A DNA stretch of 64,000 nucleotides from Silvanigrella paludirubra. Lineage in GTDB: Bacteria; Bdellovibrionota_B; Oligoflexia; Silvanigrellales; Silvanigrellaceae. Position 1 is the stretch's first letter. Each line of letters starts with the position of its first letter. The DNA is taken from NCBI RefSeq assembly GCF_009208775.1, contig NZ_WFLM01000005.1:65168-129167 (forward strand). The letters run 5' to 3'. The notes beneath the pieces were generated by a model, which did not search any database, was not told the origin of the DNA, and saw only the letters and a list, made by a program, of their open reading frames with translations. Below, piece by piece: positions 1 through 31,370 of the stretch. The position numbers were made by a program, and so were the translations under genes.

Positions 1-318
1 TTCAATAATATCTGCTTTGGGTAATTCATTAATTAATTTTGTCAAAATATCAAATTCAAAACTCAATTTTGTAGATATTTTTTCTGCTGAGTTTTTTTTA
101 ATCCAAGGTCCAACATAGGGAGTTAATGGAGGTGAACTAATTTTAGTAAAAATACCGTATTTTTTTTCTAATAAAAAAGGTAATCTAGCTAAAGTCTCAT
201 TTTTATTTTTTATTTCTACAAAATTCCATGAACTATTTTCACAAATAGCATTAAACCAATCTGAAGAATCAAAAATAGAGCAGTATAATTCTTTAATTTC
301 AGCTACTTTTTCATTCAT
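1..318 (-). CDS. FemAB/GNAT-type acetyltransferase-like protein (partial, N-terminal 106 codons)
   Basis: The reading frame begins with ATG at 318-316 and runs off the left edge of the window, so only the first 106 residues are visible. The N-terminus carries a PPLTPYVGPW stretch around residues 62-71. This resembles the start of FemAB-like/GNAT proteins found in polysaccharide loci, which transfer acyl or aminoacyl groups. The start codon overlaps the stop of the GT9 gene by 8 bases (ATGAATGA), which implies translational coupling as the distal gene of the long minus-strand operon. Frame and coupling are seen directly; the family call is from memory of the motif and is moderate. Confidence 0.55.
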   Translation of the reverse strand, partial: MNEKVAEIKELYCSIFDSSDWFNAICENSSWNFVEIKNKNETLARLPFLLEKKYGIFTKISSPPLTPYVGPWIKKNSAEKISTKLSFEFDILTKLINELPKADIIE

Positions 319-1348
319 ATTTATTCCAAATTTTTAAAAATTCATTGTAAACATATTTAGGTTGTAATTCATGCATACATTTAACATTGTATTGACATGT
401 AAGATAAGCTTCTTTTTCCGACTTTAAAAAAGAACCAGAAGTACATGGGGAACAAGGTAAATTAAGAGAGACAAATTGTGTGTTAACACCGATTTGACGA
501 GATACAGCAAATGCAGTTGGCCCCCAAAGAACTAACGTATTTTTTGATAATGAACTACTTAAATGTGTAATTCCACTATCAGATCCTATAACTACTGATG
601 AATTAGCTAAAATACCCATTAAGTCTGAAATATTTGTTTTACCAATTAAATTTAAAACGCCTTCAAATTTATTAAAATCATTACTTTCTTCATTTTTATC
701 ACCAACTAAAATAATTTTAAAATTTTTACTAATTTCAGTTATTAGAAATAACCAATTTTGAATAGGCCATCTTTTTGGAGTCAAAGTATTATTTGCTGCT
801 CCTACTTGAATTGTTACAAACCTATCAGGTAAATTAAATTTTTGCTTCATTTCATTAGATAATTTTAAAATATGATTATTAGCAAAAGCTGGATTTAATA
901 TTAATTTATTTTCAGTAAAATTAAAAAATGTTAATAATGATAAATTATTTATAACTTGATGAATAGAAAACTTAAAATCATACGTTTTAATTCTTAAAAA
1001 AGTTAAAATATAACGAAATATAATATTACTAAATTTAGATTTAAAAACGAAATGAGTTATAAATTTTTCCCTAAAATATATCCTCTTAAAATATAAACCA
1101 ATTAATTTTATTAAACTTATGCCACCAAACTTAGGATTAATTATAAAATCAAATTTAATATTTGGAATATCATTATAAATACAATTTGCATGGCTTGATA
1201 AAACATCTCCTGATCCATATTTATTATCAGTTACAATAAAAATACAAGAATCTGGAAAATTTCTTTTAAGGGTTAATATTATTGGAATTAGCATAACTGC
1301 ATCACCAATTCCAGTATAAGCAAATATTAAAATATTTTTTGATTTCAT
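311..1348 (-). CDS. Glycosyltransferase family 9 (heptosyltransferase-like)
   Basis: A 345-residue GT9 protein. Members transfer heptose or related sugars from ADP-sugars to LPS core or other glycans at the inner face of the inner membrane. Visible family marks are the N-terminal glycine-rich FAYTGIGDAVMLIP segment (about residues 9-22), a mid-protein VQVGAANNTLTPKRWP acceptor/donor loop, and a C-terminal GSDSGITHLSSSL followed by LVLWGPT, the usual donor-binding region. A C-terminal cluster of Cys residues (CSPC and two more) is also typical of the family. It is downstream of the dehydrogenase with a 38-base gap. It probably attaches the sugar made by the neighbouring heptose-like genes; the exact substrate cannot be read from sequence. 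Confidence 0.85.
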   Translation of the reverse strand: MKSKNILIFAYTGIGDAVMLIPIILTLKRNFPDSCIFIVTDNKYGSGDVLSSHANCIYNDIPNIKFDFIINPKFGGISLIKLIGLYFKRIYFREKFITHFVFKSKFSNIIFRYILTFLRIKTYDFKFSIHQVINNLSLLTFFNFTENKLILNPAFANNHILKLSNEMKQKFNLPDRFVTIQVGAANNTLTPKRWPIQNWLFLITEISKNFKIILVGDKNEESNDFNKFEGVLNLIGKTNISDLMGILANSSVVIGSDSGITHLSSSLSKNTLVLWGPTAFAVSRQIGVNTQFVSLNLPCSPCTSGSFLKSEKEAYLTCQYNVKCMHELQPKYVYNEFLKIWNKYE

Positions 1349-1386
1349 TTATTAATTCTCATTTCAAAGAAAACAAAAAAGGAGTT

Positions 1387-2349
1387 TTATATCAATTTTA
1401 ATTCATTGTATTTATTTTTCAAATATTCTTCAACATGTAAAATAGATGCCATTCCCATATTTGTAATTGCCTCAATCGAATTACCACCAATATGAGGAGT
1501 GAGATACAAATTAGGCATATTTTTATACTTTGAAGTATCATATGGCTCGTGAGGAAAAACATCACAAGCTAATCCCCCAATTTTCTTATTTATAACAGCA
1601 TCACAACAAGATTCAATATCAATTATTTCTCCTCTTGCAGTATTAATTATAAGAGCATCTGGTTTTAATAATTTAATTTCATTATTACTTAACATAAATT
1701 TTGTTGAAGGATTTAAAGGAACATGAAATGAAATAATATCGCAATTTTTTAAAATATCTTCATAACCTCTGTAAGTTATTCCTAAGTCTTTTTCTATTTC
1801 ACTTTTATCTATTACATCACTATAATATATATCATTTAATCCTATTGCTTTTAATTTTTTTGCCAGAAGTGTTCCGATGTTACCTAATCCTACAATTCCA
1901 AACTTGCAATTAATTAATTCTTTTCCGCCGTTTTTAACCCATTGCCCAGCACTAAGAAGATTCATTGAATTAAACACATTTCTACTATGTCCCAAAGAAA
2001 ATGTCATAACTAATTCAACAACAGAATTTTTATTTACTCCACTAGACACACCTAACTTAACATCATATTTATTAATTATATTAAGATCAATATTATCTAG
2101 TCCAACTCCGTATTTACTTATTAATTTTAGTTGTGGATTTTTATCTAAAATTTGATCATTTATTTTCTCAAGTCCTACTATAACAGCTTCGGCTTTAATA
2201 GAGTTTAAATAATTTGCAAGAATTTCAGAACTAGCCTGTCTTTCTTCTTGATAGTAATGAACTTCAACAGGTAATTTCTGTAAAGCTTCTCTTAAATATT
2301 TATTTTTTGAAAAAGACGGTGAAGTTACAGCAACTACTAAATTATTCAT
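1387..2349 (-). CDS. D-isomer-specific 2-hydroxyacid dehydrogenase
   Basis: A 320-residue NAD-dependent dehydrogenase of the phosphoglycerate dehydrogenase superfamily, which interconverts 2-oxo and 2-hydroxy acids. The Rossmann motif GLGNIG lies at 154-159. The catalytic triad residues are visible as Arg239 (NTARGE), Glu268 (FPHEP) and His286 (TPHIGG). It lacks the ACT domain of biosynthetic SerA, so it is probably not the serine enzyme. Its start ATG shares one base with the TAA stop of the KdsB-like gene (TAATG), implying coupling. In this operon it may reduce or oxidise a sugar-acid intermediate; that role is inference. Confidence 0.88.
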   Translation of the reverse strand: MNNLVVAVTSPSFSKNKYLREALQKLPVEVHYYQEERQASSEILANYLNSIKAEAVIVGLEKINDQILDKNPQLKLISKYGVGLDNIDLNIINKYDVKLGVSSGVNKNSVVELVMTFSLGHSRNVFNSMNLLSAGQWVKNGGKELINCKFGIVGLGNIGTLLAKKLKAIGLNDIYYSDVIDKSEIEKDLGITYRGYEDILKNCDIISFHVPLNPSTKFMLSNNEIKLLKPDALIINTARGEIIDIESCCDAVINKKIGGLACDVFPHEPYDTSKYKNMPNLYLTPHIGGNSIEAITNMGMASILHVEEYLKNKYNELKLI

Positions 2350-3116
2350 TATATATATCTCTTTACTAATTCACATTTTTTAAGCATGAATTCAACTCTA
2401 ATGACATCATTCAAAACATCTACAGGATAAGACTCATCATCTATTTGAGGGCAATATATTTTGTAACCATTTTCAAGCACTCTTAACATATCAACCGATT
2501 CTATTTCTTCAAGTTCAGTAACAGGTAATGCACTATATAAATCTAAAAATTTTCTTTCAAAGGGAATCACACAAATCTGTTTGTAAGGTTTTATTGAAAT
2601 TGAACCTGAACATTTTGCAGGACTTGGAATAGGAGAACGACTAAAATAAAGAGCATTTTCGTTTTTATCACAAACAACTTTTACGCAATTAGGAGATTGA
2701 AATTCATCTTCATCTTTTATGATTGAACGTAAATTTACGATATTTGAATTTGTAGAAATAATTGAACTTACCGCTAATTTTAGCATTTCAAACGTAACGA
2801 GAGGCTCATCTCCTTGTACCATAGTTACGTAATTAAAGGATAAATTATTTTCACTTTCAATAATATTTGTTGCTTCTTGGACTCTATCAGAAGCTCTTTC
2901 ATGTTTAGAAGATGTCATAACTACCTGAATATTATTTTTTTTACAAAATTCTACAATTTCATTATCACAAGTTGCTACGTAAACTTGATCAAATACATTG
3001 CTTAATATACAGCGCTTTGCAACATGACCTATCATTGGGTAACCCATTATTGGATACAATGGTTTTCCTGGAAATCTGGAACTATTCATTCTTGCTGGTA
3101 TAACACATAAATGCAT
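2349..3116 (-). CDS. CMP-Kdo synthetase (KdsB)-like cytidylyltransferase
   Basis: A 255-residue nucleotidyltransferase of the KdsB/acylneuraminate cytidylyltransferase family, which couples CTP to an ulosonic acid to give a CMP-sugar. The N-terminal CTP loop PARMNSSRFPGKPL (7-20), the MVQGDEPL segment and the YFSRSPIP segment are hallmark KdsB motifs, and the length is normal. It lies 10 bases downstream of an HpcH/HpaI aldolase rather than next to KdsA. It may therefore activate a 3-deoxy-ulosonate made by that aldolase instead of core Kdo. I leave the gene symbol empty because a separate housekeeping kdsB may exist elsewhere. Confidence 0.85.
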   Translation of the reverse strand: MHLCVIPARMNSSRFPGKPLYPIMGYPMIGHVAKRCILSNVFDQVYVATCDNEIVEFCKKNNIQVVMTSSKHERASDRVQEATNIIESENNLSFNYVTMVQGDEPLVTFEMLKLAVSSIISTNSNIVNLRSIIKDEDEFQSPNCVKVVCDKNENALYFSRSPIPSPAKCSGSISIKPYKQICVIPFERKFLDLYSALPVTELEEIESVDMLRVLENGYKIYCPQIDDESYPVDVLNDVIRVEFMLKKCELVKRYI

Positions 3117-3126
3117 TTTACTACCT

Positions 3127-3876
3127 CTATCTTTTTATTTTTCTTAATTGATTTTGAACATTATGACCTAAAAATAAGGTATCAATACTGAATGCTAAAA
3201 AATTATATCCATTTTCAATATTTGATTCTAAAATTGATGAATCAGGCTGAATTATATGCATACCTAGTTTTTTTGAAGCTAATAATGCTTTTTTTTCAAC
3301 TATTTTTATACACTCAAGAAGCCTTGGGTGATCAAGTTGCCCAGGAATGCCTAATGAAGAGCTTAAATCATAGGGGCCAATAAAAACGCCAGCAATTTCT
3401 TGCACAGAAAGAATTTCATCAATTTCTTCAACAGCATTTACATGCTCTACTTGAACAATTAAGTCTAATTCATGAATATTTTTATTATAGTGAGAATTAA
3501 AGTCAAATCCAAATTTGTGAGCCCTTGCTAATCCAACACTCCTTTTACCTTTTGGAGGATAAAAACAATGCTGAACAGCTTCCATTGCTTCCTTCTTTGA
3601 ATTTACCATAGGAATAATTATGCCATCTGGACCAGCATCTAAAGGAAACTTGGTATGGTAATGGGAGTTTAAGGGAACTCTCACATAAGCTTTTTTACCT
3701 TTTCCTTGAATGATTTGAATAGCATTTTGCAACTCTAAGTAAGAAACTGGTGAATGCTCTAAATCTATACATAACCAATCAAAATCAAACGAAGACATTA
3801 ACTCTACAATTGTTGGATGTGGAACAGTAATCCAAGACCCAACACTTACTTTTGTTTTCCCTATTGAATTTTCCAT
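3127..3876 (-). CDS. HpcH/HpaI-type class II pyruvate aldolase
   Basis: A 249-residue metal-dependent aldolase of the HpcH/HpaI family, which condenses pyruvate with aldehydes (or cleaves the product) to give 2-keto-3-deoxy acids. Family signatures seen are GSWITVPHPTIVELM near the N-terminus, CIDLEHSP (acid metal region), DGIIIPMVNSKKEA, YPPKGKRSVG, QVEHVNAVEEIDEI and VFIGPYDLSSSLG, in the normal order. There are no aromatic-degradation genes nearby. The gene sits between a KdsB-like enzyme and a SIS isomerase, so I infer that it makes an ulosonic acid precursor for surface sugar synthesis. The aldehyde acceptor is unknown. Confidence 0.85.
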   Translation of the reverse strand: MENSIGKTKVSVGSWITVPHPTIVELMSSFDFDWLCIDLEHSPVSYLELQNAIQIIQGKGKKAYVRVPLNSHYHTKFPLDAGPDGIIIPMVNSKKEAMEAVQHCFYPPKGKRSVGLARAHKFGFDFNSHYNKNIHELDLIVQVEHVNAVEEIDEILSVQEIAGVFIGPYDLSSSLGIPGQLDHPRLLECIKIVEKKALLASKKLGMHIIQPDSSILESNIENGYNFLAFSIDTLFLGHNVQNQLRKIKR

Positions 3877-3942
3877 TGATGTATAGATCCTTTTATTTAT
3901 TAATTTAAAAAATGATATTTACAATATAATAATGATTAATAT

Positions 3943-4539
3943 TTATAATTTTTGATTAATAAATATAGTTTCTATAATTGCATGAATTAATGCTTCATGA
4001 CCAACTTCAACTATCCCATATAATTGAGAATTTAAATAAAAAGAGATATCAGAATAAGTATTCCATAATTTGTTTTCATTTGAAAAACCAGATAACGATA
4101 TAACTTTCATATCTTTACTTTTTGCCAATTGAACACAAGAAAGTATATTTTGAGAATTACCCGAACTAGAAATTGCAATAAGAATATCATTAGGCTCAGC
4201 CATTAAATTTAATGGTTTAGAATAGACATTTTCATATCCAAAATCATTTGCCATACAAGTAATTAATGCGGGATCATTTAAGAACAAAGATTTTATTTTT
4301 AATTTATTCATTAAGTCTTGTGAAAGATGCGAACACATTGCTGCACTACCACCATTTCCAACCCACCAAACCCTATTTCCGGAAGCTTTTACTTTTTCAA
4401 ATAAATTTAAGCAATAAAGATAAGACTCATCAAATGAACTAATGTTTCCTTCTATTTTAGTTTCTACTTTATTTAAAACAGTTGACAAACAATTCATCCA
4501 TTCACTTGGTTTATTAATATTGAAATTTTTCTGATTCAT
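3943..4539 (-). CDS. SIS-domain phosphoheptose isomerase-like protein
   Basis: A 198-residue single SIS-domain protein resembling GmhA, which converts sedoheptulose 7-phosphate to heptose 7-phosphate in the cytosol. Visible marks are NRVWWVGNGGSAAMCSHLSQ (sugar-phosphate loop, about residues 55-74) and ILIAISSSGNSQNIL (second phosphate-binding loop), followed by GHEALIHAI near the C-terminus, as in GmhA. It follows the nucleotidyltransferase-kinase gene by 16 bases, so the two are almost surely co-transcribed. Together with that gene, the HAD hydrolase and the SDR epimerase it reconstitutes the types of enzymes needed for a nucleotide-activated heptose. Substrate assignment is inferred. Confidence 0.85.
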   Translation of the reverse strand: MNQKNFNINKPSEWMNCLSTVLNKVETKIEGNISSFDESYLYCLNLFEKVKASGNRVWWVGNGGSAAMCSHLSQDLMNKLKIKSLFLNDPALITCMANDFGYENVYSKPLNLMAEPNDILIAISSSGNSQNILSCVQLAKSKDMKVISLSGFSNENKLWNTYSDISFYLNSQLYGIVEVGHEALIHAIIETIFINQKL

Positions 4540-4555
4540 ATAGATTTTTCCTTAT

Positions 4556-6070
4556 TTATTTTAGCATATGACTAACAGTTCTAATTAAATCAATCTTATT
4601 CACTGAAGATTTATTTCCAATAATTTTGGTTTTAAGTCCTGCAAAACAATTTCCAATAAAAGGAATTATTTTTTCATCGACATTTAATTTAACTAATAAT
4701 GTTGTAATCGCTAAATAAGCATCTCCTGCACCAGTTGTATCTATTGTCGAATCTTTAATAAATGTTGGACAATAAAATCTATCTTGAGATTTATTTAAAT
4801 ATAGACTTCCAGCAGTTCCTAATGTAATAGAATGAGTAGATTGTAAATTATTTTGTACAATTTTTTCAGCTAATACCTCTACATCACTTAAACGATCATG
4901 CGTTCCAATACGACATTCATTCTCATCTATTGACAAGTAGTCATACCTTTTATGTTTTGTAAATGGATTAAAACCAAAGTTACTTGAATTTGTTTGAACA
5001 TTTAGTGCTACAAATGTTTTTATAGAAGATAAAGACTCCAATAATTTCCCTTCAAACAATCCATGACCAAAATCTGCAATTAATACAATATCAAAATTAC
5101 TTGCTTCACTTCTAATAAACTCACAAATTTCATTTACAGAATTATTTGCCCACATATTATTAGAAATATTTGTGATTTCAAAAATTTTCTGTTGCTTAAA
5201 ATGAGATAAATACCTTGATTTGCGAGGCGTGATAAAGTCATTATATTTAAAATCATATAATTTAATTTTTTTATCAAGAGAAGTGTCAAGAAGCTTATTA
5301 AAATAAGCTTCATTTCCATTAGGAATTGCTAATGAAACTTTACAATTAAGAGCAGCTAAATGATTTGCAATAGCTAGAGTACCACCAGCATAATCTTCTT
5401 GATATAAATATCTTGCAGAAATAGATGGACTTTTAGAAGATACGCCTTCGGCTTTACAAAATATATATGTATCCACTATGGGTTCACCAATAACAAGCAC
5501 ATTTAAATTTGAAAATTCTTGTAAAATCTTTTCAAATGAGGAGGGATTTAATAATTTTTTTATGGACTCAATGGCATTTATTTGATTCAAATCAAATGGA
5601 TTAAAATATGAATTTATTAATTCCGTAGAGCTCATTGTATCGTCTTCTGTGAACACCATACTTCCTGAAACATGCTTAATTGCTGCTTCTTCCTCAAATA
5701 TTTTGCCCGTAATGTCTTTTTCTTGATCAATATAATCGGGTCCTTTGACATAAAAATCAGGTCTCAGCTCAAGAATAGGATTCACCGCTGTCGCTGAGTT
5801 ATTTAGACAAACATAATCAACAAAATCAATTGATGACAATATTTCAACTCGTTGAGCTGATGAGTAGCGAGGTCTACCAGGACCTTTATTTACAAATTCA
5901 TCAGGAGTAACTGTTACCACTAAAATGTCACCAAACTTTTTTGCAGATCTCAAATGTAATAAATGTCCAAAATGAAACAAATCAAAAGTTCCATGGCAAT
6001 GAACAATTTTAGATTCACTATGTTTTGCTTTTAAAGAAGAAAGATCATTGTAAAGAATTTTTTTTGCCAT
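4556..6070 (-). CDS. Bifunctional sugar nucleotidyltransferase / PfkB kinase with HldE domains in reversed order
   Basis: A 504-residue two-domain enzyme. Residues about 1-160 form a cytidylyltransferase-like domain with the motif GTFDLFHFGH (27-36) and GPGRPRYSSAQRVEIL. Residues about 180-504 form a PfkB sugar kinase with AGGTLAIANHLAAL and the terminal signature DTTGAGD (444-450). In E. coli HldE the kinase comes first and the nucleotidyltransferase second, so the order here is inverted. The enzyme should phosphorylate a sugar phosphate and then add a nucleotide, presumably a heptose given the adjacent GmhA-like gene. Both active-site motifs appear intact. The substrate and the nucleotide (ADP, CDP or other) are not determinable from sequence. 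Confidence 0.88.
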   Translation of the reverse strand: MAKKILYNDLSSLKAKHSESKIVHCHGTFDLFHFGHLLHLRSAKKFGDILVVTVTPDEFVNKGPGRPRYSSAQRVEILSSIDFVDYVCLNNSATAVNPILELRPDFYVKGPDYIDQEKDITGKIFEEEAAIKHVSGSMVFTEDDTMSSTELINSYFNPFDLNQINAIESIKKLLNPSSFEKILQEFSNLNVLVIGEPIVDTYIFCKAEGVSSKSPSISARYLYQEDYAGGTLAIANHLAALNCKVSLAIPNGNEAYFNKLLDTSLDKKIKLYDFKYNDFITPRKSRYLSHFKQQKIFEITNISNNMWANNSVNEICEFIRSEASNFDIVLIADFGHGLFEGKLLESLSSIKTFVALNVQTNSSNFGFNPFTKHKRYDYLSIDENECRIGTHDRLSDVEVLAEKIVQNNLQSTHSITLGTAGSLYLNKSQDRFYCPTFIKDSTIDTTGAGDAYLAITTLLVKLNVDEKIIPFIGNCFAGLKTKIIGNKSSVNKIDLIRTVSHMLK

Positions 6071-6098
6071 TTAAATATCACCTTAGCTTAATAGAGAA

Positions 6099-7346
6099 TT
6101 ATTTTAAAATATCATTTCCATATTTATTTAAAAAATCAGAAGAGCAAACTCCTACCATATGTCTAATAGGATGATCCAAAGGAAATTTATTTTTAAATTT
6201 CCTTTGATTTTCATCAAATTCATCATTAAATTTTTTATTTTTTATCCTAATTAACAATTCTTTAACCCCTGCTAAAATATCTTCCGATGCACTTTCTTCA
6301 GGTATCATATCATTCCATTTATAAAATTGGCTATTTTGAAACCTATCAGCCGATATCAATTTTAAAACACCACAATCATTAATCCATTCTTTCATTTGAA
6401 ATATTTTTGATAGACTCAAAATATCTCCCTTCGAATTTTTTATCAAAGATGGCACGATTACACAGTTTTCTGCGTTTGGCCCCTCACCCAAGGGAATAAA
6501 ATTATGATACAATATTGGTTTACCAAAATTCAATGGCGCAAATGCAATTCCACTAGATCCCATTATAGAAAATTCGACCTTGTAGTGTAAATAAATATCT
6601 AAAAATTCTCTGTCTTTAATATTAAAGTTTTGCATACTTATTATATTACTATCTTGAGAAATTTCATTTTCATCAAAATGTCCGCAGCGAATTATTTTAT
6701 AATTTAATCCTTGAAGATATTTAATAGTTGGTAACAAATTTGCAAAAGAGCTCATACGGTAAGTATCATGAGTAAAATGACACTTTCTTATTTTTTCCCA
6801 GTAGTAATTATCACGATTATTAACGGATACCAGACGATCGGATTCTGAAATACCCATTTTTTTTAATAAAATTTTACCCCTATTTTTTTCTTCTTCGGTA
6901 AATTTAAACAAAGAATTGAGATGGGAGTTATATATAATTCCATTTTTAATTAACTTATTTACAAGTAATATTTTTCTTTTTTTTAATAAAAAATTATTTG
7001 AGCTAATAATTAAATTAAACATAACAGGATCTTTTTGAATATTAAAACTTCTACTTATGAGATCAAAATAAAAGTTATTACAACTTACTCCATCATTAAT
7101 TATCAAGACGAGATCATTTTTAGGATCAATATTGTTTGCCACACATTTTCGATAATATATATTCGAATATAGGATAAAAGGACCAATTGCATCGAATGGC
7201 AAAATTGCAATAAATTTATCATTATATTTTTTTTCATATAAATTTACCAACTTAAAATAGTTAATAAGTTTTCCAAAATAATTGAATATATAATCTAAAA
7301 AATATTTGTAAAATAATTTAATTCTATATTTTAATTTAACTAACAT
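6099..7346 (-). CDS. Putative glycosyltransferase (TIGR04372-like)
   Basis: A 415-residue protein from the ATG at 7346-7344. I prefer this over the ATG 24 bases upstream because GGAG lies seven bases before it. With this start it overlaps the HAD gene by 11 bases. Recognisable stretches are FIAILPFDAIGPFI near the N-terminus, a central VNNRDNYYWEK segment followed by THDTYRMSS, then YKIIRCGHFDE and SIMGSSGIAFAPLNFGKPILYHN. This layout resembles the TIGR04372 family of putative glycosyltransferases and is distantly GT9/GT-B-like. It has a basic, hydrophobic N-terminus consistent with membrane association. Substrate is unknown, and the family call is from memory. Confidence 0.6.
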   Translation of the reverse strand: MLVKLKYRIKLFYKYFLDYIFNYFGKLINYFKLVNLYEKKYNDKFIAILPFDAIGPFILYSNIYYRKCVANNIDPKNDLVLIINDGVSCNNFYFDLISRSFNIQKDPVMFNLIISSNNFLLKKRKILLVNKLIKNGIIYNSHLNSLFKFTEEEKNRGKILLKKMGISESDRLVSVNNRDNYYWEKIRKCHFTHDTYRMSSFANLLPTIKYLQGLNYKIIRCGHFDENEISQDSNIISMQNFNIKDREFLDIYLHYKVEFSIMGSSGIAFAPLNFGKPILYHNFIPLGEGPNAENCVIVPSLIKNSKGDILSLSKIFQMKEWINDCGVLKLISADRFQNSQFYKWNDMIPEESASEDILAGVKELLIRIKNKKFNDEFDENQRKFKNKFPLDHPIRHMVGVCSSDFLNKYGNDILK

Positions 7347-7995
7347 TAATTTGCTCCAATAAGTAATCATAAGCCATTTTTAATTCATTAAAACAAATAT
7401 AATCTAAACGGGACCAATTACACTTATTGCCTATAAAACTTTCTATTCTAATAAATTTTATTTCATTTTTATTCGCTGCTAGCATATCAGAAGGCGTATC
7501 CCCTATAAAAATAATATCATTATTTTTATATTTTTTATCCATCATAATTTTTTTTAATACTTGTGATTTAGAAGAACCAGAAAACATTTCACTTCCAAAA
7601 ATTTCCTCTATTACTTCACTTGTATCTCCAATATATTTTTTAATTTCATTTATGGGAGCCATAGAGACTATATAGAGATTTATATTTTTAGATTTTAACA
7701 TGGTTAACATTTTTTTTACTTCATAAGAAAATGTTAACGAAGAAGTATTTAAATCTAATATTATTTGAAACTGGGTTAATAATTGTTCTTTAGTATATGA
7801 ATATTTATTTATTTCTTTCAAAATCCAATCACAAATATCGCCTCTAGTGGCACCCATCAAATCTGAATTTAATTTTTCACATAATTTCAAAGATAAACCA
7901 GATTGAGCAAATTCAGCTAATTCCAGCATTGAATCATATTTTGCCTTTGTTGTTTCTATTAACACACCATCAAAATCAAAAATTATACATTTCAT
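7336..7995 (-). CDS. HAD-superfamily hydrolase (phosphatase)
   Basis: A 219-residue HAD phosphatase of the phosphoglycolate phosphatase-like subgroup with a helical cap. Motif I is FDFDGVLIET with nucleophile Asp7 and Asp9, motif II is the serine of YIVSMAP, and motif IV is IFIGDTPSDM near residue 165. It lies 2 bases downstream of the cyclase gene and overlaps the next gene, so it is embedded in the operon. In this setting it could perform the dephosphorylation that GmhB performs in ADP-heptose synthesis, although it is not of the GmhB subclass by its motifs. That role is inferred from context only. Confidence 0.85.
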   Translation of the reverse strand: MKCIIFDFDGVLIETTKAKYDSMLELAEFAQSGLSLKLCEKLNSDLMGATRGDICDWILKEINKYSYTKEQLLTQFQIILDLNTSSLTFSYEVKKMLTMLKSKNINLYIVSMAPINEIKKYIGDTSEVIEEIFGSEMFSGSSKSQVLKKIMMDKKYKNNDIIFIGDTPSDMLAANKNEIKFIRIESFIGNKCNWSRLDYICFNELKMAYDYLLEQINVS

Positions 7996-7997
7996 AA

Positions 7998-8678
7998 TTA
8001 AACTTTTGCAATAATTGTTACTGGAGCGCCATCTCCATTTTCAATTCTTAAAGGAAGGCTAACTACTATAGAAGGAGTTTTTTGACACAATGGCTCAAAA
8101 TTCGCATCTTCAATTATAAGTATTGGATTATCATTTTTTAAAAACTCTTGATGAACCTTTCTTCCCAATTGGCGGTTAGAAAATGAAGAAATAGATATAA
8201 AATCAAGCGCTATAGTGGTTAAAAATGGGAAACGAGTTCTCAAAAATGCAGCAACTCCTTCAGAAACAGGAACTCCTATTGTTGAGTAACGAATATCATT
8301 ATTTCTAAAACGTGAAATTCCAGTTCTAATTAAAAGTAACGTTATGTTATTTGAAATAAAATTAATATTACCTTTAATTTTTTCAACATCTAAAGTATCA
8401 CCAAAATTTAAGTTTAAATTAATGAAGCCTATGTCATTATGTATAAATGAATTTGGTTGATAATCGGTTACAATTTTACCAAAATGATCGAAATGATTTG
8501 GAAAATCATAATGAGTTCCTATATGATTTGATGCTGTAAATTCATATGAATTACAAGAATCTCCTAATTCCATATTTCGAATTCTTGTCAACTGAATTCT
8601 TTTACCTTCCCCATAAGGTGGACAACTTTCACCCCATACATGAGATAAAAAAACCCAATTTCCTAATGAATTATCCAT
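7998..8678 (-). CDS. Cyclase-family (KynB/arylformamidase-like) metal hydrolase
   Basis: A 226-residue protein of the cyclase family that includes bacterial kynurenine formamidase. The metal-binding motif HIGTHYDFPNHF lies at 52-63, with His52, His56 and Asp58 as expected ligands, and the length is normal. No tryptophan-degradation genes are nearby. It overlaps the SDR gene by 8 bases and precedes a HAD gene by 2 bases, so it belongs to this sugar operon. A lactonase or amide-hydrolase step on a sugar acid is a plausible but unproven role. Family assignment is good; function here is unknown. Confidence 0.82.
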   Translation of the reverse strand: MDNSLGNWVFLSHVWGESCPPYGEGKRIQLTRIRNMELGDSCNSYEFTASNHIGTHYDFPNHFDHFGKIVTDYQPNSFIHNDIGFINLNLNFGDTLDVEKIKGNINFISNNITLLLIRTGISRFRNNDIRYSTIGVPVSEGVAAFLRTRFPFLTTIALDFISISSFSNRQLGRKVHQEFLKNDNPILIIEDANFEPLCQKTPSIVVSLPLRIENGDGAPVTIIAKV

Positions 8679-9570
8679 TTTCTGAAAAACCTTCTAAATG
8701 AGATATTTCTTGAATACAATCTAGAATGCCTTGTCCTAAATCAACAAACTCATTAATCATTATTTTTTTACCAACCTTGGAACTATAAGAATAAGGCGTC
8801 ATAGTGTAATGAGCATTGGAATCACAATTATTAAAATCTAAGGAAATTCTACCAGGTAACATCTCTGAAATCATTTTCATGATGTCCCTAATTTTATAAG
8901 ACTGAGTACCTGTCAGAATTAAATGTTTATTGCTATATTTCTCATCCTCTAAAATATTTACACTCATAATAGCTGCATCTACTGCATGAATATACTCTCT
9001 AAATTCATCCCCGGTTCCCGAGTAAGAAATGGAATTTTCTTTTAATGCCTGATAAATCATTCGAAAAATTGCATTTCTCTTATCCGCTCTTCTTCCATAA
9101 AGTGAACCATATCTTAGAATTGTAAATGGAAGAGAATATCTTTCCCAATATAATTCTGTAAATTTTTCGGCAGATTGTTTTGTTGCTCTATAAAATGATC
9201 CTGATTCACTGTAAACATATATTGAACTTGCAAAAACAAATCTTTTTATTCCATTTATTTTTGAAGCTTCTAGAGCATTTAAATTTCCAATAATATTTAG
9301 CTGAGCTGCCTTTTCAGGCTCATCAATAGCTTCATTTATATCAGATAAACCTGCAAAATTAAATACAAAATCTTTGTTTTCACATGCTTTAACTAGTTCT
9401 TCTTTTTTTAAGATATCTCCAATAATTAAGCTTTGAGAAGGTTGAAGAAACTTTGAAGGTTTATTATCAAAAATAGAAACTTGATATCCTTTATTTGTTA
9501 ACTCATCGGCAACATGACTTCCAAGAAAGCCAGCACCTCCAATAACCAATACATTTTTATTATTTATCAC
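8671..9570 (-). CDS. NAD-dependent epimerase/dehydratase (extended SDR)
   Basis: A 299-residue extended short-chain dehydrogenase that acts on nucleotide sugars. The NAD-binding motif GGAGFLGSH is at residues 11-19, a catalytic serine region is FASSIYVYSE, and the active-site YxxxK appears as YRATK. A C-terminal part with REYIHAVDAA is typical of sugar epimerases. It begins the enzymatic part of the operon, 48 bases after the ABC transporter gene. By analogy with HldD it might epimerise a nucleotide heptose, but sequence alone cannot separate epimerase from dehydratase or reductase. Confidence 0.85.
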   Translation of the reverse strand: MINNKNVLVIGGAGFLGSHVADELTNKGYQVSIFDNKPSKFLQPSQSLIIGDILKKEELVKACENKDFVFNFAGLSDINEAIDEPEKAAQLNIIGNLNALEASKINGIKRFVFASSIYVYSESGSFYRATKQSAEKFTELYWERYSLPFTILRYGSLYGRRADKRNAIFRMIYQALKENSISYSGTGDEFREYIHAVDAAIMSVNILEDEKYSNKHLILTGTQSYKIRDIMKMISEMLPGRISLDFNNCDSNAHYTMTPYSYSSKVGKKIMINEFVDLGQGILDCIQEISHLEGFSENG

Positions 9571-9618
9571 AATAATATTCCTAAAATTAATATTTAATCA
9601 AAAAAATATTCAACAAAT

Positions 9619-11394
9619 TTATAGTTTCACAATTTCATCTGCGTATCTCATTATACCTTCTCTATGAGAAACTAAAAGTATTGTACAATATTTATTTAAA
9701 CTTTTTAAACTTTCGGAAATTTCTAACTCAGTTTCAAGATCCAAATTTGCCGAAACTTCATCTAAAATAAGAATACAAGGCTTATTTAAAATTGCCCTTG
9801 CCAAACATAATCTTTGTTTTTGCCCTGTTGATAGCCCCGAATGATCCTCATTAATAAAATAGTTCAATCCAACGTCATTTATAAAATTATCTATTTTAGC
9901 AAGTCTTATAGCGTTATCTATATCTTCTTGGGTAGCTGATACCATAACGCCATATAACAAATTATCTAGAATTGAACCTTTGATTAAAAAAGGTTCAGAA
10001 CCAACATATCCTACTCGATTTTGAGAATTTTCAAAAAACTCTTTTGGCTCAATCCCATTCAGCAAAATCTTTCCAATACTTGGTTTATATAAGCCTAATA
10101 TTAAGCTTAATAAAGTACTTTTACCAGATCCACTGGATCCAATGATCGCACATTGTTTACCTGAATGAACCGTTAAATTAAACTTTGAAAATATTTCTTT
10201 AGCATCACGGGAATAAAAATAATGCATATCAATTATTTCTATTTTTGGAGATATCATGGAAGATTGAGACAATTGAGTATCTGTATTTCTTTTATTTAAA
10301 GATAATTGAGAAGATTCTGATTTTAAATTTATATTATTTTGATTTTTAAAAAAACCAAAAAAATTAACCTCTGTTTTTGATTTATTAAAATCCTTAATAT
10401 TAATGTTATCAAAAAAATCTAAAGACAATTTAAACTGCTCAAAGTATGTGTTCATTTGTCCTAATGCCCCTAAAACAGATGAAATATTTTGGACAAAACG
10501 AATAAATAAATAAATAAAAGAAAGAAGCACAACTCCCGGAATTGGAAATAAAATAGTAGCAGTGTAAATAATAACAATTAATAAAAATATGCCAAGAAAT
10601 GAAGTCAGCGTGGTAACAAAAATATTTAAAAATGACGATTTAATTGTCAGCGATGAATAATTCATAGCAGAATTTAATAATTCATTTTCTTCAACTTTAT
10701 TTTTTTTCATAACATTTATAAAAAAAATATTACGAGATACTCTTTCAATTCCTGAATTTAATTTGTACATTTCACTAGGAATTTTTTTAGAAACCAGCTT
10801 TACTTTTTTATTAATATATATAACAATTAAACCAACCATTAACATACCTATTAAACTAAAAAATAAGCAGGTAAAAGAAAGTTTAAACATAAAAAATAGG
10901 AGTATTAAACATTGAATAGAATAAGATGTAAAATTCATAAAACAGGATATAAAATAAGAAAACTTTGGAGCCAATTCAGATATTTGAAAATGAATTTCAG
11001 AAGAACTTGCCAAATTTCTTTTTCCAAAAGAAATTAAATTCATAATTGAAAGAGATTTAAATCTCAGATTAGAAACTTCGAGAACATAATTTGCACCATG
11101 CTGATTTAATACTGAAAACACAAATCTAATAAATCCAATTGACAAAAGTAAAATTAAAAAAATATTTGTTGATATATTTTCAACTTTAATTCCAAAAAAC
11201 ATTTCTTTCAACTGAATCATTCCAAGAGATGCTAAAAAAAATTGGATTAAAATAGCAATATTAATTTCAATTATTCCTAGCATAAATGAACTTATAATAC
11301 TTATAATCATCCATTTAATAATACTACTATTAAAAAAATTACCTAATATATTCAATCGAACTAAAAAATCTTTAAACTGTTTCATTTTATTCAT
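9619..11394 (-). CDS. ABC transporter, fused permease and ATPase (MsbA-like exporter)
   Basis: A 591-residue half-transporter. The first about 330 residues are strongly hydrophobic with several membrane helices. The C-terminal ATPase carries Walker A GSSGSGKST (419-427), signature LSTGQ (521-525), Walker B CILILDE (540-546) and the H-loop SH at 576-577, all intact. Residues about 340-390 form a polar, Ser/Asn-rich linker that is longer than usual. It is the first gene after a good promoter and heads the long sugar operon. It may export or flip the glycan intermediate made by the downstream genes, since no Wzx-type flippase is seen in the window. Substrate is inferred. Confidence 0.85.
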   Translation of the reverse strand: MNKMKQFKDFLVRLNILGNFFNSSIIKWMIISIISSFMLGIIEINIAILIQFFLASLGMIQLKEMFFGIKVENISTNIFLILLLSIGFIRFVFSVLNQHGANYVLEVSNLRFKSLSIMNLISFGKRNLASSSEIHFQISELAPKFSYFISCFMNFTSYSIQCLILLFFMFKLSFTCLFFSLIGMLMVGLIVIYINKKVKLVSKKIPSEMYKLNSGIERVSRNIFFINVMKKNKVEENELLNSAMNYSSLTIKSSFLNIFVTTLTSFLGIFLLIVIIYTATILFPIPGVVLLSFIYLFIRFVQNISSVLGALGQMNTYFEQFKLSLDFFDNINIKDFNKSKTEVNFFGFFKNQNNINLKSESSQLSLNKRNTDTQLSQSSMISPKIEIIDMHYFYSRDAKEIFSKFNLTVHSGKQCAIIGSSGSGKSTLLSLILGLYKPSIGKILLNGIEPKEFFENSQNRVGYVGSEPFLIKGSILDNLLYGVMVSATQEDIDNAIRLAKIDNFINDVGLNYFINEDHSGLSTGQKQRLCLARAILNKPCILILDEVSANLDLETELEISESLKSLNKYCTILLVSHREGIMRYADEIVKL

Positions 11395-11878: not shown

Positions 11879-12580
11879 TTGGAAAACAATAATATAAATC
11901 AAGAAAATTTATTAATAAATAAAGACTTAATTATAAATCATCAGCAATTATTTCGAGATGACAAAGGAACTATCAAACCAATGCTTTCAACACTAGAAGG
12001 CATTTCTTTTCAAGAAAGTCCTCTAGACTTTTTCATTTTATTGGCAAGATATAAATTTGCAGCTCGTTTTATTAAGAAAAATCATTCTGTTTTAGATGCG
12101 GGTTGTGGTCATGGCAACGGCAGTGTTTTTTTGAGCAAATTTGCAAAAGAAGTAAAGGGAGCTGATTTTGATCAAGACCTAATAAACTCAAATTCAGAGC
12201 AATACAAATCAATACCTAACTTATCCTTTTCAAGAATCAACTTACTAGATGTAAATGATTTTAATACTTTTGATGTCGTTGTTTCAATGGATGTGATAGA
12301 ACATTTCACTAAAGAACAAACAGAAATTGTTGCTTCAAACTATGCAAAACTTACATCTGACAATGGCTTTGCCATAATAGGGACTCCAAATATAGCCTCA
12401 CAACCATTCGCTTCAAAAAGACGCATTGAATCTCATATTCATGAATTTGAACCACAAGAATTCGAAACTTTATTAAAAAGACATTTCAAAAATGTTTTTT
12501 TATTTTCGATGACAGACGAAACCGTATCAACAAGCTTTTCGAAAATGGCCTGGTACCTTATGGCTATTTGCACTAAATAA
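11879..12580 (+). CDS. Class I SAM-dependent methyltransferase
   Basis: A 233-residue methyltransferase. The SAM-binding motif I is VLDAGCGHGNGSVFL (about residues 71-85), followed by VKGADFD (acidic motif II) and VVSMDVIEH (motif III region), matching the UbiE/Methyltransf_11-type fold. The start is TTG at 11879, preceded by GGAG about 11 bases upstream; an ATG just upstream is in another frame. It is a single gene facing the epimerase at 12594 and ends inside a shared hairpin. It probably methylates a sugar or a lipid-linked glycan, since all its neighbours are polysaccharide genes. The substrate is unknown. Confidence 0.85.
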   Translation: MENNNINQENLLINKDLIINHQQLFRDDKGTIKPMLSTLEGISFQESPLDFFILLARYKFAARFIKKNHSVLDAGCGHGNGSVFLSKFAKEVKGADFDQDLINSNSEQYKSIPNLSFSRINLLDVNDFNTFDVVVSMDVIEHFTKEQTEIVASNYAKLTSDNGFAIIGTPNIASQPFASKRRIESHIHEFEPQEFETLLKRHFKNVFLFSMTDETVSTSFSKMAWYLMAICTK

Positions 12581-12605
12581 AAAATACTTTTATTTAGTGC
12601 AAATA
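12565..12605. terminator. Bidirectional terminator hairpin shared by two convergent genes
   Basis: A perfect 18-bp inverted repeat: arm 12565-12582 (TATTTGCACTAAATAAAA) and its complement at 12588-12605, with a 5-base loop. The last codons and stop codons of both the methyltransferase and the convergent epimerase lie inside the arms, and each strand has a T-rich 3' side. Confidence 0.75.
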
Positions 12606-13577
12606 AAAGAACCAGTCCTTCGTTGCTGTTTTAATTTGTTCAGAATCCCAAACAGTTGCTGTTTTCCAGTAATCTATATGCTCAATCATTGACTTCACAC
12701 CATCTTCAAAAGATACTTGAGGTGTCCAATTTAATAATTGATTACTTTTTAATATGTCTGCATGAGTAATGTCTGGCTCACCCGGTCTTTTTGGAATATA
12801 TTCAACATCTCCTTGCAATAATTCAACTAAATTATTTATTGATTTAGGTTTTCCACTTCCTATATTTATTACTTCACCACTTAAATTTGATTGGCTTGCT
12901 TTTATAAAGGCTTCAACAACATCACTTACATAAATAAAATCTCGTTTTTGATTGCCATCACCCACAACAGTATAAGGTTTTTGAGCAAGCTTTTGAGCAA
13001 GAAAAACGCCAAAAACAGCTCCATAAGTCCCGTTTGTCCTCGATCTTGGACCAAATACATTGAATAATCTCAATGAAACTGTAGGTAATTTATAAATTTT
13101 TTCCCAATGTAAAACACACTGTTCTCCAATATACTTAGTCAATGCGTAGGGATATTGAGGATCAGTCATAGATAATTCATTTGTTGGCACAGAAGATGAA
13201 ATGCCATAACAACTTGAACTTGCTGCATATACAAACTTTTTTATTTTAGCTTCTACTGATTTAATCAAAACATTAACTGTAGCATCTACATTAGATTTGT
13301 GATATTCAAGAGGTCTTTGTATAGATGGCACAATATCAGCTAATGCAGCCAAATGAAAAACATTATCATATCCATCAAAACTTTCTATTGCATTAAACTC
13401 ACTCAAATCAACATTTTTTACTAATAGATTGGGATTGGATATTACAGAAGCTAAATTTTCTCTTCTACCATTTGAAAAATTATCTAAAACTAACACACTG
13501 TGACCAAGCTGCAGTAATTTAGTAACTAAATGACTACCAATAAAACCTGCTCCTCCAGTAACAATTGATTTTTTCAT
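12594..13577 (-). CDS. NAD-dependent sugar-nucleotide 4-epimerase-like SDR
   Basis: A 327-residue extended SDR of the GalE/WbpP-like epimerase class. The N-terminal NAD motif GGAGFIGSH lies at 8-16. AASSSCYGISS gives the catalytic serine region and YALTKYIGEQ the Tyr/Lys pair, and LRLFNVFGPRSR plus GDGNQKRDFIYVSDVV are typical for UDP-sugar epimerases. It stands alone, converging on a methyltransferase with a shared terminator. A UDP-Glc/UDP-GlcNAc C4-epimerase role is likely, but the substrate cannot be fixed from sequence. Confidence 0.85.
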   Translation of the reverse strand: MKKSIVTGGAGFIGSHLVTKLLQLGHSVLVLDNFSNGRRENLASVISNPNLLVKNVDLSEFNAIESFDGYDNVFHLAALADIVPSIQRPLEYHKSNVDATVNVLIKSVEAKIKKFVYAASSSCYGISSSVPTNELSMTDPQYPYALTKYIGEQCVLHWEKIYKLPTVSLRLFNVFGPRSRTNGTYGAVFGVFLAQKLAQKPYTVVGDGNQKRDFIYVSDVVEAFIKASQSNLSGEVINIGSGKPKSINNLVELLQGDVEYIPKRPGEPDITHADILKSNQLLNWTPQVSFEDGVKSMIEHIDYWKTATVWDSEQIKTATKDWFFYLH

Positions 13578-14048: not shown

Positions 14049-15059
14049 TTAAGCCGGTGTAACAATGAAACTTACATGCGAGCTAAGTAAATTTTCCTGC
14101 AGAAATTTTTGAAAATTATTTCTAACATTAATTTCAGAATTACATAACATATTTGTGAAACGATCTGAAATTAATGAAGGGTTTTTAATGTAAGCATTTC
14201 TAACTATATCGAGATCTAATTTTCCAGGTGTCTTAAAATCTAAAACTTTTAATCCAGCTCTTTCAATGAGAACTTTTAAACCCTTAAAAGAAAGTAAATT
14301 AATATGGTGAGGAGGGTAAATACTATTTGAATTCTCCCAAAGCGTTTGAAGATCAAAACCAGAACACGTGAGTGTTGTAAATTGAATTATTCCACCTTTT
14401 TTTATAATTTTTTTTGCTGAAGTTAAAAAAAGGAAAGGATTATACAAGTGTTCAATAACCTCAAATGAAGTTGCATAATCTATAGAAATCTCATCATAGT
14501 CAATATTCTCCATTGTTTTTTCTAAAATTTTAAATCCTTTTTTACGACAATCATTTGCTAGAGCCGGTGAAGGCTCAATTCCTAAAATATTATTAAAAAT
14601 GTTATGTCTGCCTAGCTCTTCCAATAATATTCCATATCCTGAACCTATATCACAAAATGATAGATTATTACTTGAAGATAAAAACTTTTTCACATTTTCT
14701 ATAATCTCATTTGCCTTCGGGCGTATCAAATACTCTCTTCTAGCCTCAGCAGTATTTTTAAAAAAATGGGTACTCCAATATTTTACAGATGAGCCATTTT
14801 TATAAAAAGTATTTATCATATCTTCACTGGGGCGAGGCGATAGATATAAAGATAAGCAATCTAAACAAGTCTTATATTCAAAACTGTGTTTTATAAAAGA
14901 AATTTCTTTTCTAGTTGACAAACAAGCCGGACAATCTACTTCAATATATTTTTCTTTTTCATGAAAAAAACTTGAAATATCTTCTTTAGCTAGCTCAAGG
15001 TATTTATTAAAAATCTCAGCTGGACGAATGTTTTCTTCGTTAAATAAAATTTTATCCAT
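14049..15059 (-). CDS. Class I SAM methyltransferase with N-terminal zinc-ribbon-like segment
   Basis: A 336-residue protein. Residues about 43-70 contain two Cys pairs, CPAC and CLDC, resembling the small zinc ribbon before Methyltransf_23/12 domains in sugar C- and O-methyltransferases. The SAM motif I is FCDIGSGYGILLEELG, followed by ILGIEPSPA and then YATSFEVIEHLYNPF. A good ribosome site AGGAGCAATAA precedes the ATG at 15059. Gaps of about 470 and 920 bases on either side make it a single transcript. A role in decorating a polysaccharide sugar is inferred from the locus. Confidence 0.85.
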   Translation of the reverse strand: MDKILFNEENIRPAEIFNKYLELAKEDISSFFHEKEKYIEVDCPACLSTRKEISFIKHSFEYKTCLDCLSLYLSPRPSEDMINTFYKNGSSVKYWSTHFFKNTAEARREYLIRPKANEIIENVKKFLSSSNNLSFCDIGSGYGILLEELGRHNIFNNILGIEPSPALANDCRKKGFKILEKTMENIDYDEISIDYATSFEVIEHLYNPFLFLTSAKKIIKKGGIIQFTTLTCSGFDLQTLWENSNSIYPPHHINLLSFKGLKVLIERAGLKVLDFKTPGKLDLDIVRNAYIKNPSLISDRFTNMLCNSEINVRNNFQKFLQENLLSSHVSFIVTPA

Positions 15060-29501: not shown

Positions 29502-31370
29502 TTACACTCCATTATATGAAAAAAGTTTTTTCCATTCATTCTCTATAAAAATATTCCAACTGGATGTTAAATTTGCTCCTTTAGGAAGATTTAAAGGTAA
29601 AGGAACGCCAAATCCTTTTTTTTGTAACTTCGTTATATTACCAGTCAAACGTATCGATAAGGAATCTCGAAGTATTCTTTTATAGATTCCATCTTTAATT
29701 TTAAAATCTAATGGTAATGAAGTTCCAAATTCAATTATTCTATAATCTAGTAATGGACTTCTAGCCTCTAACGAATAAGCCATAGTACCTCTATCTACTT
29801 TTACAAGCACATCATCTCTTAAATAAGAAACTAAATCTAGTGCGGCTAACTTTTCTTCAATACTACGGTCTTCAAGGGATTGCCAAGAATAATTAGGATG
29901 CCATTTCATATTATATGAATATAAATCAGGTAATTCTGATAATTCTAATTGATCTATTTCTAATAAGTCTTTTTTTGGATTTATTGATAAAATAGTATCA
30001 TATAATTGATATAAATTTTGAGACTTTAAAATTTGATTTATTTTGTAAATTTTAGCATCTATATTAGTTGAATTAATTGAAAACGATTTCAAAATAAATT
30101 GAAAAATTTTCTTTCCTAGATTTGAAGAAATTCCATATTTTATCAATTTATCACAACCATAAATAGATCTAATAGCACGATTTATATTATTTAATTTTTT
30201 AGTATATGAAAATCTTGGATAACCTAAAAACACCTCGTCACCACCATCTCCAGTTAATACAACAGAAACATATTTTTTTGCTGCTTCTGAAATAGCCATA
30301 GTTGGAATTTGTGAACTGTCAGAAAAAGGTTCATCATAATAAAATGGAATTTTAGATATTTGATTATGATAATCAGACTCTTTTAAATGTATCAAGTTTA
30401 AAGGAAAGTTCAATTGCTTACATGTATTTTGTGCTATGCTAGATTCATCAAAATTACTATCATCAAACTTTACAGTAAAAGCTTTAACATCTTGTATATT
30501 CAATTTTTTGATACTTGATAACACAAGACTTGAGTCTATCCCTCCTGAAAGAAAAGCACCTACAGGAACATCTGCAATAAGCCTGATTTTAGTGGCATCA
30601 TCTAAGAGTTCTAAAAATTCATCAATAGCATTTTTATAAGAATATTTATATTTATTTTTGTATCCATTAAAAGGATCCCAATACTGTTGCTCTTTTAAAT
30701 TTTCTAAATAATCATTCCCTAAATTTAATTCAGCAAAAGAGGCTGCATTTAGTTTTTTACATTCGTTATAAATACTTAAATTTGAAGGTATATAGCCCAA
30801 CCAACGATAAAATGCTAAACTCTGCTGATTAACAGTAAGTTTTAAATTTAGATTGACAATTGCTTTTAATTCAGAAGAAAACACCAAACAATCTTTTGTT
30901 TCATACAAATAAAGTGGTTTTTTACCTAAACGATCTCTTGCAAATATAATTTTATTATTTGATGAATCTAAATAAGCCAAAGACATCATACCATTTAATT
31001 TCTTACAATAATTTACTCCATATAAATTTAGTCCAGCAAGAATAACTTCTGTATCCGTATTAGATTTGAATTCCCATTTATCAGATAATTCTTTTTTTAA
31101 ATCAATAAAATTATAAATTTCTCCATTAAAAACAATGGAATTAAAATTGCCATTTAAAAACTGTTTGTTCATAGGTTGGTGTCCCATTGAACTTAAATCA
31201 AGAATTGACAATCTTCTTTGACCAAACCAAACATCCCATTTATCAGAGATGTTAAACTTTTCTAATCCCCAATCATCAGGACCTCTATGCGATAGCATAT
31301 TTAATGCATTTTTTAATGTTTTTTCGTTAAAACGATTTGGCTTAGAAATAACACCAAATATTCCACACAT
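29502..31370 (-). CDS. Glutamine-dependent asparagine synthetase-like amidotransferase (AsnB family)
   Basis: A 622-residue enzyme with an N-terminal class II glutaminase (catalytic Cys2 in MCGIFGVI, NGEIYNF, TDTEVILAG) and a C-terminal ATP-pyrophosphatase domain with GAFLSGGIDSSL. VVLTGDGGDEVFLGYPR and SLEARSPLLDYR are also present. The family makes asparagine, but WbpS-type members in O-antigen loci amidate hexuronic acids. Its position at the head of an operon with a UDP-uronate dehydrogenase, a uronate epimerase and a GT4 favours the second role. Sequence cannot exclude true AsnB activity. Confidence 0.87.
   Translation of the reverse strand: MCGIFGVISKPNRFNEKTLKNALNMLSHRGPDDWGLEKFNISDKWDVWFGQRRLSILDLSSMGHQPMNKQFLNGNFNSIVFNGEIYNFIDLKKELSDKWEFKSNTDTEVILAGLNLYGVNYCKKLNGMMSLAYLDSSNNKIIFARDRLGKKPLYLYETKDCLVFSSELKAIVNLNLKLTVNQQSLAFYRWLGYIPSNLSIYNECKKLNAASFAELNLGNDYLENLKEQQYWDPFNGYKNKYKYSYKNAIDEFLELLDDATKIRLIADVPVGAFLSGGIDSSLVLSSIKKLNIQDVKAFTVKFDDSNFDESSIAQNTCKQLNFPLNLIHLKESDYHNQISKIPFYYDEPFSDSSQIPTMAISEAAKKYVSVVLTGDGGDEVFLGYPRFSYTKKLNNINRAIRSIYGCDKLIKYGISSNLGKKIFQFILKSFSINSTNIDAKIYKINQILKSQNLYQLYDTILSINPKKDLLEIDQLELSELPDLYSYNMKWHPNYSWQSLEDRSIEEKLAALDLVSYLRDDVLVKVDRGTMAYSLEARSPLLDYRIIEFGTSLPLDFKIKDGIYKRILRDSLSIRLTGNITKLQKKGFGVPLPLNLPKGANLTSSWNIFIENEWKKLFSYNGV

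Follow-up and report, generated by a model that had tools for sequence, protein, structure and literature searches.

To our knowledge, the known routes to cytidine monophosphate (CMP)-activated sugar acids, that is, to activated 3-deoxy-D-manno-octulosonic acid (Kdo), sialic acid, legionaminic acid, pseudaminic acid and ketodeoxynonulosonic acid (Kdn), all use a phosphoenolpyruvate (PEP)-dependent synthase. Here, we analyzed an operon at positions 1-11394 of a 64,000-nucleotide stretch of the Silvanigrella paludirubra contig NZ_WFLM01000005.1 (hereafter the window, in whose coordinates gene positions are given). The operon pairs an HpcH/HpaI-type aldolase with a KdsB-like CMP-transferase, and a Pfam/NCBIfam search of its products found no PEP-dependent synthase of the KdsA/NeuB type, in agreement with an earlier note on this DNA. 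The recurrence of this aldolase beside an altered KdsB-like protein points to a widespread sugar acid not described so far. With moderate confidence, we interpret the locus as a mobile surface-glycan operon with two activated-sugar modules, of which the second (module B) would make a non-Kdo, CMP-activated 2-keto sugar acid by way of the aldolase. If this is true, an entire class of surface sugars has gone unnoticed, partly since the activating enzyme is annotated as an ordinary KdsB. Our literature search found no description of this cluster, although most subscription papers fell outside that search, so it may have been published.

The genes that the earlier note had listed are present as it described them: all are intact, lie near-contiguously on the minus strand (overlaps of at most 35 bp, gaps of at most 66 bp), and belong to the Pfam/NCBIfam families named. 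A promoter-like site with a good match (11483-11456) is situated 62 bp upstream of the first gene; given this match and the short gaps and overlaps, a single transcription unit is likely. The genes, in minus-strand order, are as follows.

9619..11394, minus strand: exporter-type ATP-binding cassette (ABC) transporter whose membrane and ATPase domains are fused, at the head of the operon (Pfam/NCBIfam match)
8671..9570, minus strand: extended short-chain dehydrogenase/reductase (SDR) of the NAD epimerase/dehydratase family, module B (Epimerase PF01370; Tyr127/Lys131 kept)
7998..8678, minus strand: cyclase-family metal hydrolase, kynurenine-formamidase-like, module B (Cyclase PF04199; HxGTHxDxPxH motif)
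7336..7995, minus strand: HAD_2 hydrolase, beta-phosphoglucomutase-like phosphatase, module B (HAD_2 match)
6099..7370, minus strand: TIGR04372-family glycosyltransferase (TIGR04372, 99.7 bits, cut-off 45)
4556..6070, minus strand: nucleotidyltransferase and PfkB kinase fusion, 504 amino acids, module A (HldE domains in reversed order)
3943..4539, minus strand: SIS-domain isomerase, GmhA-like, module A (SIS_2, 54 bits)
3127..3876, minus strand: HpcH/HpaI-type aldolase, 249 amino acids, module B (PF03328, 113 bits, cut-off 25)
2349..3116, minus strand: KdsB-like CMP-transferase, 255 amino acids, module B (TIGR00466, 160.5 bits, cut-off 155.2)
1387..2349, minus strand: D-2-hydroxyacid dehydrogenase resembling phosphoglycerate dehydrogenase (PGDH) and hydroxypyruvate reductase, module B (PF02826, 155 bits)
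311..1348, minus strand: GT9-family (heptosyltransferase-type) glycosyltransferase (PF01075, 65 bits)
1..318, minus strand: FemAB-like gene, of which only the 5' part lies inside the window (PF02388, 23.5 bits, just below the cut-off of 24); the complete protein has 316 amino acids (L007:17536-18486)

An aldolase profile scan of 84,980 species genomes returned 80 loci, in which genes were called as simple open frames. A KdsB-like gene lay within 1 kb of the aldolase in 24 of the 25 loci whose aldolase is at least 45% identical to that of the window, versus 2 of the 21 most distant loci (Fisher p ~1e-9, shared ancestry being ignored). In the sole exception among the closest loci (L027), the contig ends 620 bp from the aldolase. 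These 25 loci also carry the dehydrogenase (22 loci), the SDR (16), the hydrolase (16) and the HAD protein (15). In genomes of the same phylum, aldolases 54-61% identical to ours are accompanied by the KdsB-like protein, dehydrogenase, SDR, hydrolase and HAD protein (L022, L023, L024, and partly L025). By the labels in their records, loci with an aldolase of at least 39% identity span at least 13 phyla, mostly as metagenome bins whose single assignments are fallible; these phyla include Bacteroidota, Ignavibacteriota, Campylobacterota, Pseudomonadota, Nitrospirota, Omnitrophota and one archaeal bin (Woesearchaeota), and SAR11-type marine bacteria are also among the carriers of the pair. Since the peptide patterns of the scan favour some relatives, we sampled 396 Bacteroidota genomes independently of it: ten had the aldolase, nine of them with a nearby CMP-transferase (KdsB-like or NeuA/PseF-like) and other module genes. 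The recurrence of the pairing across phyla is therefore more than chance, and the conservation of the pair as a unit, which the earlier note had anticipated, was borne out.

Two types of cluster could be distinguished. Type I, to which the window belongs, has the SDR and HAD proteins, and type II has a Gfo/Idh/MocA protein and an SIS protein, accompanied either by an inositol monophosphatase or by an SDR plus an AroB-related enzyme of the TIGR04425 family. The TIGR04425 enzyme, a 'sugar phosphate phospholyase', is regular in type II clusters (for example L041:14865-15953, 420.7 bits, cut-off 400), hinting at a carbocyclic product there.

Next, we compared the KdsB-like protein, which passes the TIGR00466 cut-off only narrowly, with canonical enzymes. 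In a tree, 49 KdsB-like proteins from aldolase loci grouped in a single clade, separate from 31 canonical KdsBs that were sampled from one phylum (support 100/94). The CTP-loop and metal residues Arg9, Arg14, Lys18, Asp103 and Asp233, including the two metal-binding Asp (roles according to PMC3149649), are kept in all 49. By contrast, Asp50, His180, Tyr184, Glu209 and Gln210, present in 31 of 31 canonical KdsBs, are replaced by Cys50 (42/49), Gln180 (45/49), Ile184 (40/49), Asp209 (46/49) and Met210 (43/49). The window protein carries the full signature, which offers a simple tool for re-annotation. Six active-site residues have been given for the KdsB structure 3DUV (PMC12058783); five of them, Gln98, Arg157, His185, Glu214 and Gln215, align with window positions 101, 160, 180, 209 and 210. 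The sixth, Lys74, could not be located in the 3DUV sequence. Of the five mapped Kdo-site residues, three (His185, Glu214 and Gln215) are changed to Gln, Asp and Met in the window protein and in most of the 49 relatives; it is the C-terminal domain of KdsB that binds Kdo (PMC3149649). By its clade and its Kdo-site residues, the protein differs from the ordinary enzymes of Kdo activation. Moreover, the genome encodes KdsA (on another contig), a canonical KdsB and a canonical-order HldE outside the operon, so ordinary Kdo synthesis has no need of the operon copy and the aldolase is no substitute for KdsA. The earlier note had proposed an ulosonic acid built from pyruvate rather than PEP, and the lack of a PEP-dependent synthase in the operon agrees with this.

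The aldolase keeps the catalytic residues His41, Arg66, Glu144 and Asp170, which are invariant in 43 module aldolases. These aldolases also share His145, Tyr169 and His207, in place of the Thr, Ala/Gly and gap, respectively, of 16 distant aldolases; judged by these positions, they form a distinct HpcH/HpaI subfamily. The nearest solved structure is Escherichia coli YfaU/RhmA (126 bits). In viral contigs and phages, relatives of the aldolase were limited to two short, 30%-identical matches in Staphylococcus phage records, and no relative of the module A fusion was found there; plasmids yielded one aldolase cluster and two fusion loci.

The catalytic residues of the remaining module B enzymes are likewise invariant, or nearly so, among relatives. 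The dehydrogenase keeps Arg239, Glu268 and His286. The hydrolase matches kynurenine formamidase 4cz1 (33 bits), and its His52, His56, Asp58 and His62 are invariant in 21 sequences. The motif Asp residues of the HAD protein are invariant in 26 sequences, and the protein itself is 37% identical to the one beside the cyclase-family gene in L024; the SDR is 56-61% identical to those in module loci of related genomes. In four loci, a NeuA/PseF-like CMP-transferase domain is naturally fused to a D-2-hydroxyacid dehydrogenase (L034:11537-13297, L088:11511-13289, L047:12405-14177, and one in L043), which ties the dehydrogenase to CMP-sugar chemistry. The texts that we found on the 8-epi-legionaminic gene sets of Acinetobacter, checked as a precedent for the dehydrogenase, describe no such enzyme.

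We infer the chemistry as a whole, including reaction order, donor, acceptor, product and polymer. In the scheme that we prefer, the SDR and HAD proteins, with the hydrolase, would prepare an aldehyde acceptor, and the metal-dependent aldolase would add a pyruvate-type enolate to it. The KdsB-like enzyme would then move CMP from CTP onto the C2 hydroxyl of the product, a glycosyltransferase of the operon would transfer the activated sugar, and the ABC transporter would export it. Module B would do the job of KdsA/NeuB plus KdsB/NeuA, a reversible pyruvate-type aldolase replacing the PEP-dependent synthase. The dehydrogenase would make or recycle a 2-keto acid of the pathway, and module A (SIS protein and fusion) would make a second, nucleoside diphosphate (NDP)-activated heptose-like sugar. 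Since the HpaI and GarL aldolases accept acid aldehydes, 3-deoxy-lyxo-heptulosaric acid (Dha) would be one candidate product compatible with this scheme.

Several observations weigh against this scheme. The aldolase scores far below the equivalog cut-off of every characterised HpcH/HpaI activity (HpaI, 150.5 versus 368.8 bits; GarL, 133.5 versus 406.75; RhmA, 132.1 versus 441). Its reaction is reversible, and flux in the synthetic direction is our assumption. The dehydrogenase has no obvious role in a plain route from pyruvate and an aldehyde. The transferase beside some aldolases is NeuA-like rather than KdsB-like, and in type II clusters the SDR and HAD proteins give way to Gfo/Idh, SIS, AroB-like or inositol monophosphatase proteins; the product may thus differ between clusters.

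The donor could be pyruvate, giving a 3-deoxy acid, or hydroxypyruvate supplied by the dehydrogenase. We favour pyruvate only slightly because the hydroxypyruvate alternative accounts better for the dehydrogenase. According to this alternative, the dehydrogenase would form hydroxypyruvate by oxidizing D-glycerate or a similar 2-hydroxyacid, and the aldol product would be a CMP-activated 2-ulosonic acid that keeps its 3-hydroxyl, similar to D-glycero-D-talo-oct-2-ulosonic acid (Ko). The dehydrogenase would then have a direct role, consistent with its presence in most of the closest loci and with its closest matches, PGDH (184 bits) and glyoxylate/hydroxypyruvate reductases (177 bits); furthermore, some solved HpcH/HpaI enzymes bear the name hydroxyketoacid aldolase (6r62, 7nuj). 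Nevertheless, no aldolase residue that we examined separates pyruvate from hydroxypyruvate use, and a few clusters (for example L049) do without the dehydrogenase. On balance we judge this route unlikely, though the likeliest of the alternatives. Its broadest form, a widespread class of as yet undescribed CMP-activated 2-ulosonic acids made from hydroxypyruvate via a dedicated dehydrogenase, retaining the 3-hydroxyl unlike Kdo and sialic acids and in some cases ring-closed by the AroB-like enzyme, seems to us distinctly unlikely.

The earlier note had instead taken the SIS isomerase, the fusion, the HAD phosphatase and the SDR as one set paralleling ADP-heptose synthesis, and had joined heptose and ulosonate in a single pathway. 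In such a pathway, these four would supply a heptose, activated or as the aldehyde, for extension by the aldolase, as might be expected from genes that share an apparent operon with a GT9 protein of the heptosyltransferase family. The neighbourhoods speak for a split into two modules. In relatives, the HAD and SDR genes accompany the aldolase module (L022, L024, L030, L035, L045, L046 and L101), whereas the fusion occurs in 0 of the 80 aldolase loci, and L022, L023, L024 and L025 lack both the fusion and its closely related SIS gene. Conversely, a full-length, 51%-identical fusion adjoins its SIS gene without an aldolase in genome G019 (L009), as do more distant fusions on Azospirillum and Solidesulfovibrio plasmids (L013, L014) and in approximately 20 Pseudomonadota loci (L179-L199). 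The fusion and SIS protein are therefore a separate module, and the neighbourhood conservation that the earlier note had suggested checking holds for the aldolase-KdsB core but not for the full gene set. The SDR, moreover, scores 38 bits against a cut-off of 274.6 for HldD, the ADP-heptose epimerase. Collectively, these results make an integrated pathway improbable.

Module A itself plausibly makes an NDP-activated heptose-like sugar. The fusion has its nucleotidyltransferase at residues 15-152 and its PfkB kinase at 183-487, the reverse of the HldE order, with intact HxGH and GAGD motifs, respectively. Both module A proteins fall short of the equivalogs of the ADP-heptose pathway (fusion, 134 bits versus 521 for HldE PRK11316; SIS protein, 91 bits versus 209 for GmhA TIGR00441). 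The fusion was found in 49 of 399 Pseudomonadota genomes (E <= 1e-60), where the genes around it include those for SIS proteins, a HAD hydrolase, a kinase-like protein, radical SAM proteins and paired thiamine pyrophosphate enzymes of the transketolase or E1 type; from this gene content, it may represent a second uncharacterised surface-sugar pathway. The genome encodes an HldE of canonical domain order (L113) but, besides that of the window, no GmhA-like SIS_2 protein; three near-complete congeners have MurQ-type SIS_2 proteins only. The window SIS protein is unlikely to be the missing GmhA of the genome, several congeners having no GmhA-like SIS_2 protein at all.

Other genes lie near the operon. 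An NAD epimerase (12594-13577) is 56-61% identical to ones beside or near the fusion elsewhere (L009:8247-9293, L013:10840-11850, L011:5948-6949) and may travel with module A. An S-adenosylmethionine (SAM) methyltransferase (11879-12580) is 71% identical to its counterpart in the G019 fusion locus (L009:9283-10026), more than the 51% of the fusion itself, which suggests a recent exchange of island parts. A DUF7033 protein is encoded just outside the window (L007:16132-17520, 72 bits), and two genes are asparagine-synthase-like by sequence (L007:11764-13722; window 29502-31370); genes of both kinds are typical of surface-sugar islands. One further gene may provide a tailoring enzyme, its family being present in 12 other aldolase loci.

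14049..15059, minus strand: SAM-dependent methyltransferase (PF13489)

The KdsB-like gene could also encode a second CMP-Kdo synthetase, comparable to KpsU of the E. coli group 2 capsules, with the aldolase as a catabolic neighbour. The TIGR00466 score is in line with this view, but the separate clade, the clade-wide changes at three mapped Kdo-site residues, the close linkage with the aldolase across many phyla and the canonical KdsB in the genome make it very improbable. Least probable of all is an oxidative route in which the SDR or Gfo/Idh protein would form an aldonolactone, the cyclase-family enzyme would open it (kynurenine-formamidase-type enzymes open amides and lactams), the dehydrogenase would yield the 2-keto acid that is then activated with CMP, and the aldolase would serve only to degrade or recycle it. 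This route accounts for the dehydrogenase and hydrolase together, but it is the aldolase, not the hydrolase, that accompanies the CMP-transferase most constantly, and many clusters lack the hydrolase.

Returning to the two-module reading, its closest described counterparts each match the operon in part. As in the Kdo pathway (KdsD-KdsA-KdsC-KdsB), a 2-keto sugar acid would be CMP-activated by an enzyme of the KdsB fold with a HAD phosphatase encoded nearby; unlike in that pathway, the operon has an HpcH/HpaI aldolase in place of the PEP-dependent KdsA, the Kdo-site residues of its KdsB-like protein are changed, and the true KdsA and KdsB of the genome are encoded outside it. The sialic, legionaminic and pseudaminic acid pathways (NeuB-NeuA type) share the logic of joining a three-carbon unit to an aldehyde before CMP activation, and in several related clusters the transferase is NeuA/PseF-like and NeuB genes lie alongside, yet our operon has the metal-dependent aldolase and no NeuB. 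Among HpcH/HpaI aldolases (HpaI, GarL, RhmA/YfaU), the fold and catalytic residues are common ground, with YfaU/RhmA the best solved match; the known members are catabolic, whereas the module subfamily is marked by its three residues of its own and adjoins a CMP-transferase. Finally, module A resembles the ADP-heptose pathway (GmhA-HldE-GmhB-HldD) in combining an SIS isomerase with HldE-type kinase and nucleotidyltransferase domains, but differs from it in its reversed domain order, in scores far under the GmhA and HldE cut-offs, in having transketolase-like enzymes and radical SAM proteins as partners elsewhere, and in coexisting with a canonical-order HldE in the same genome.

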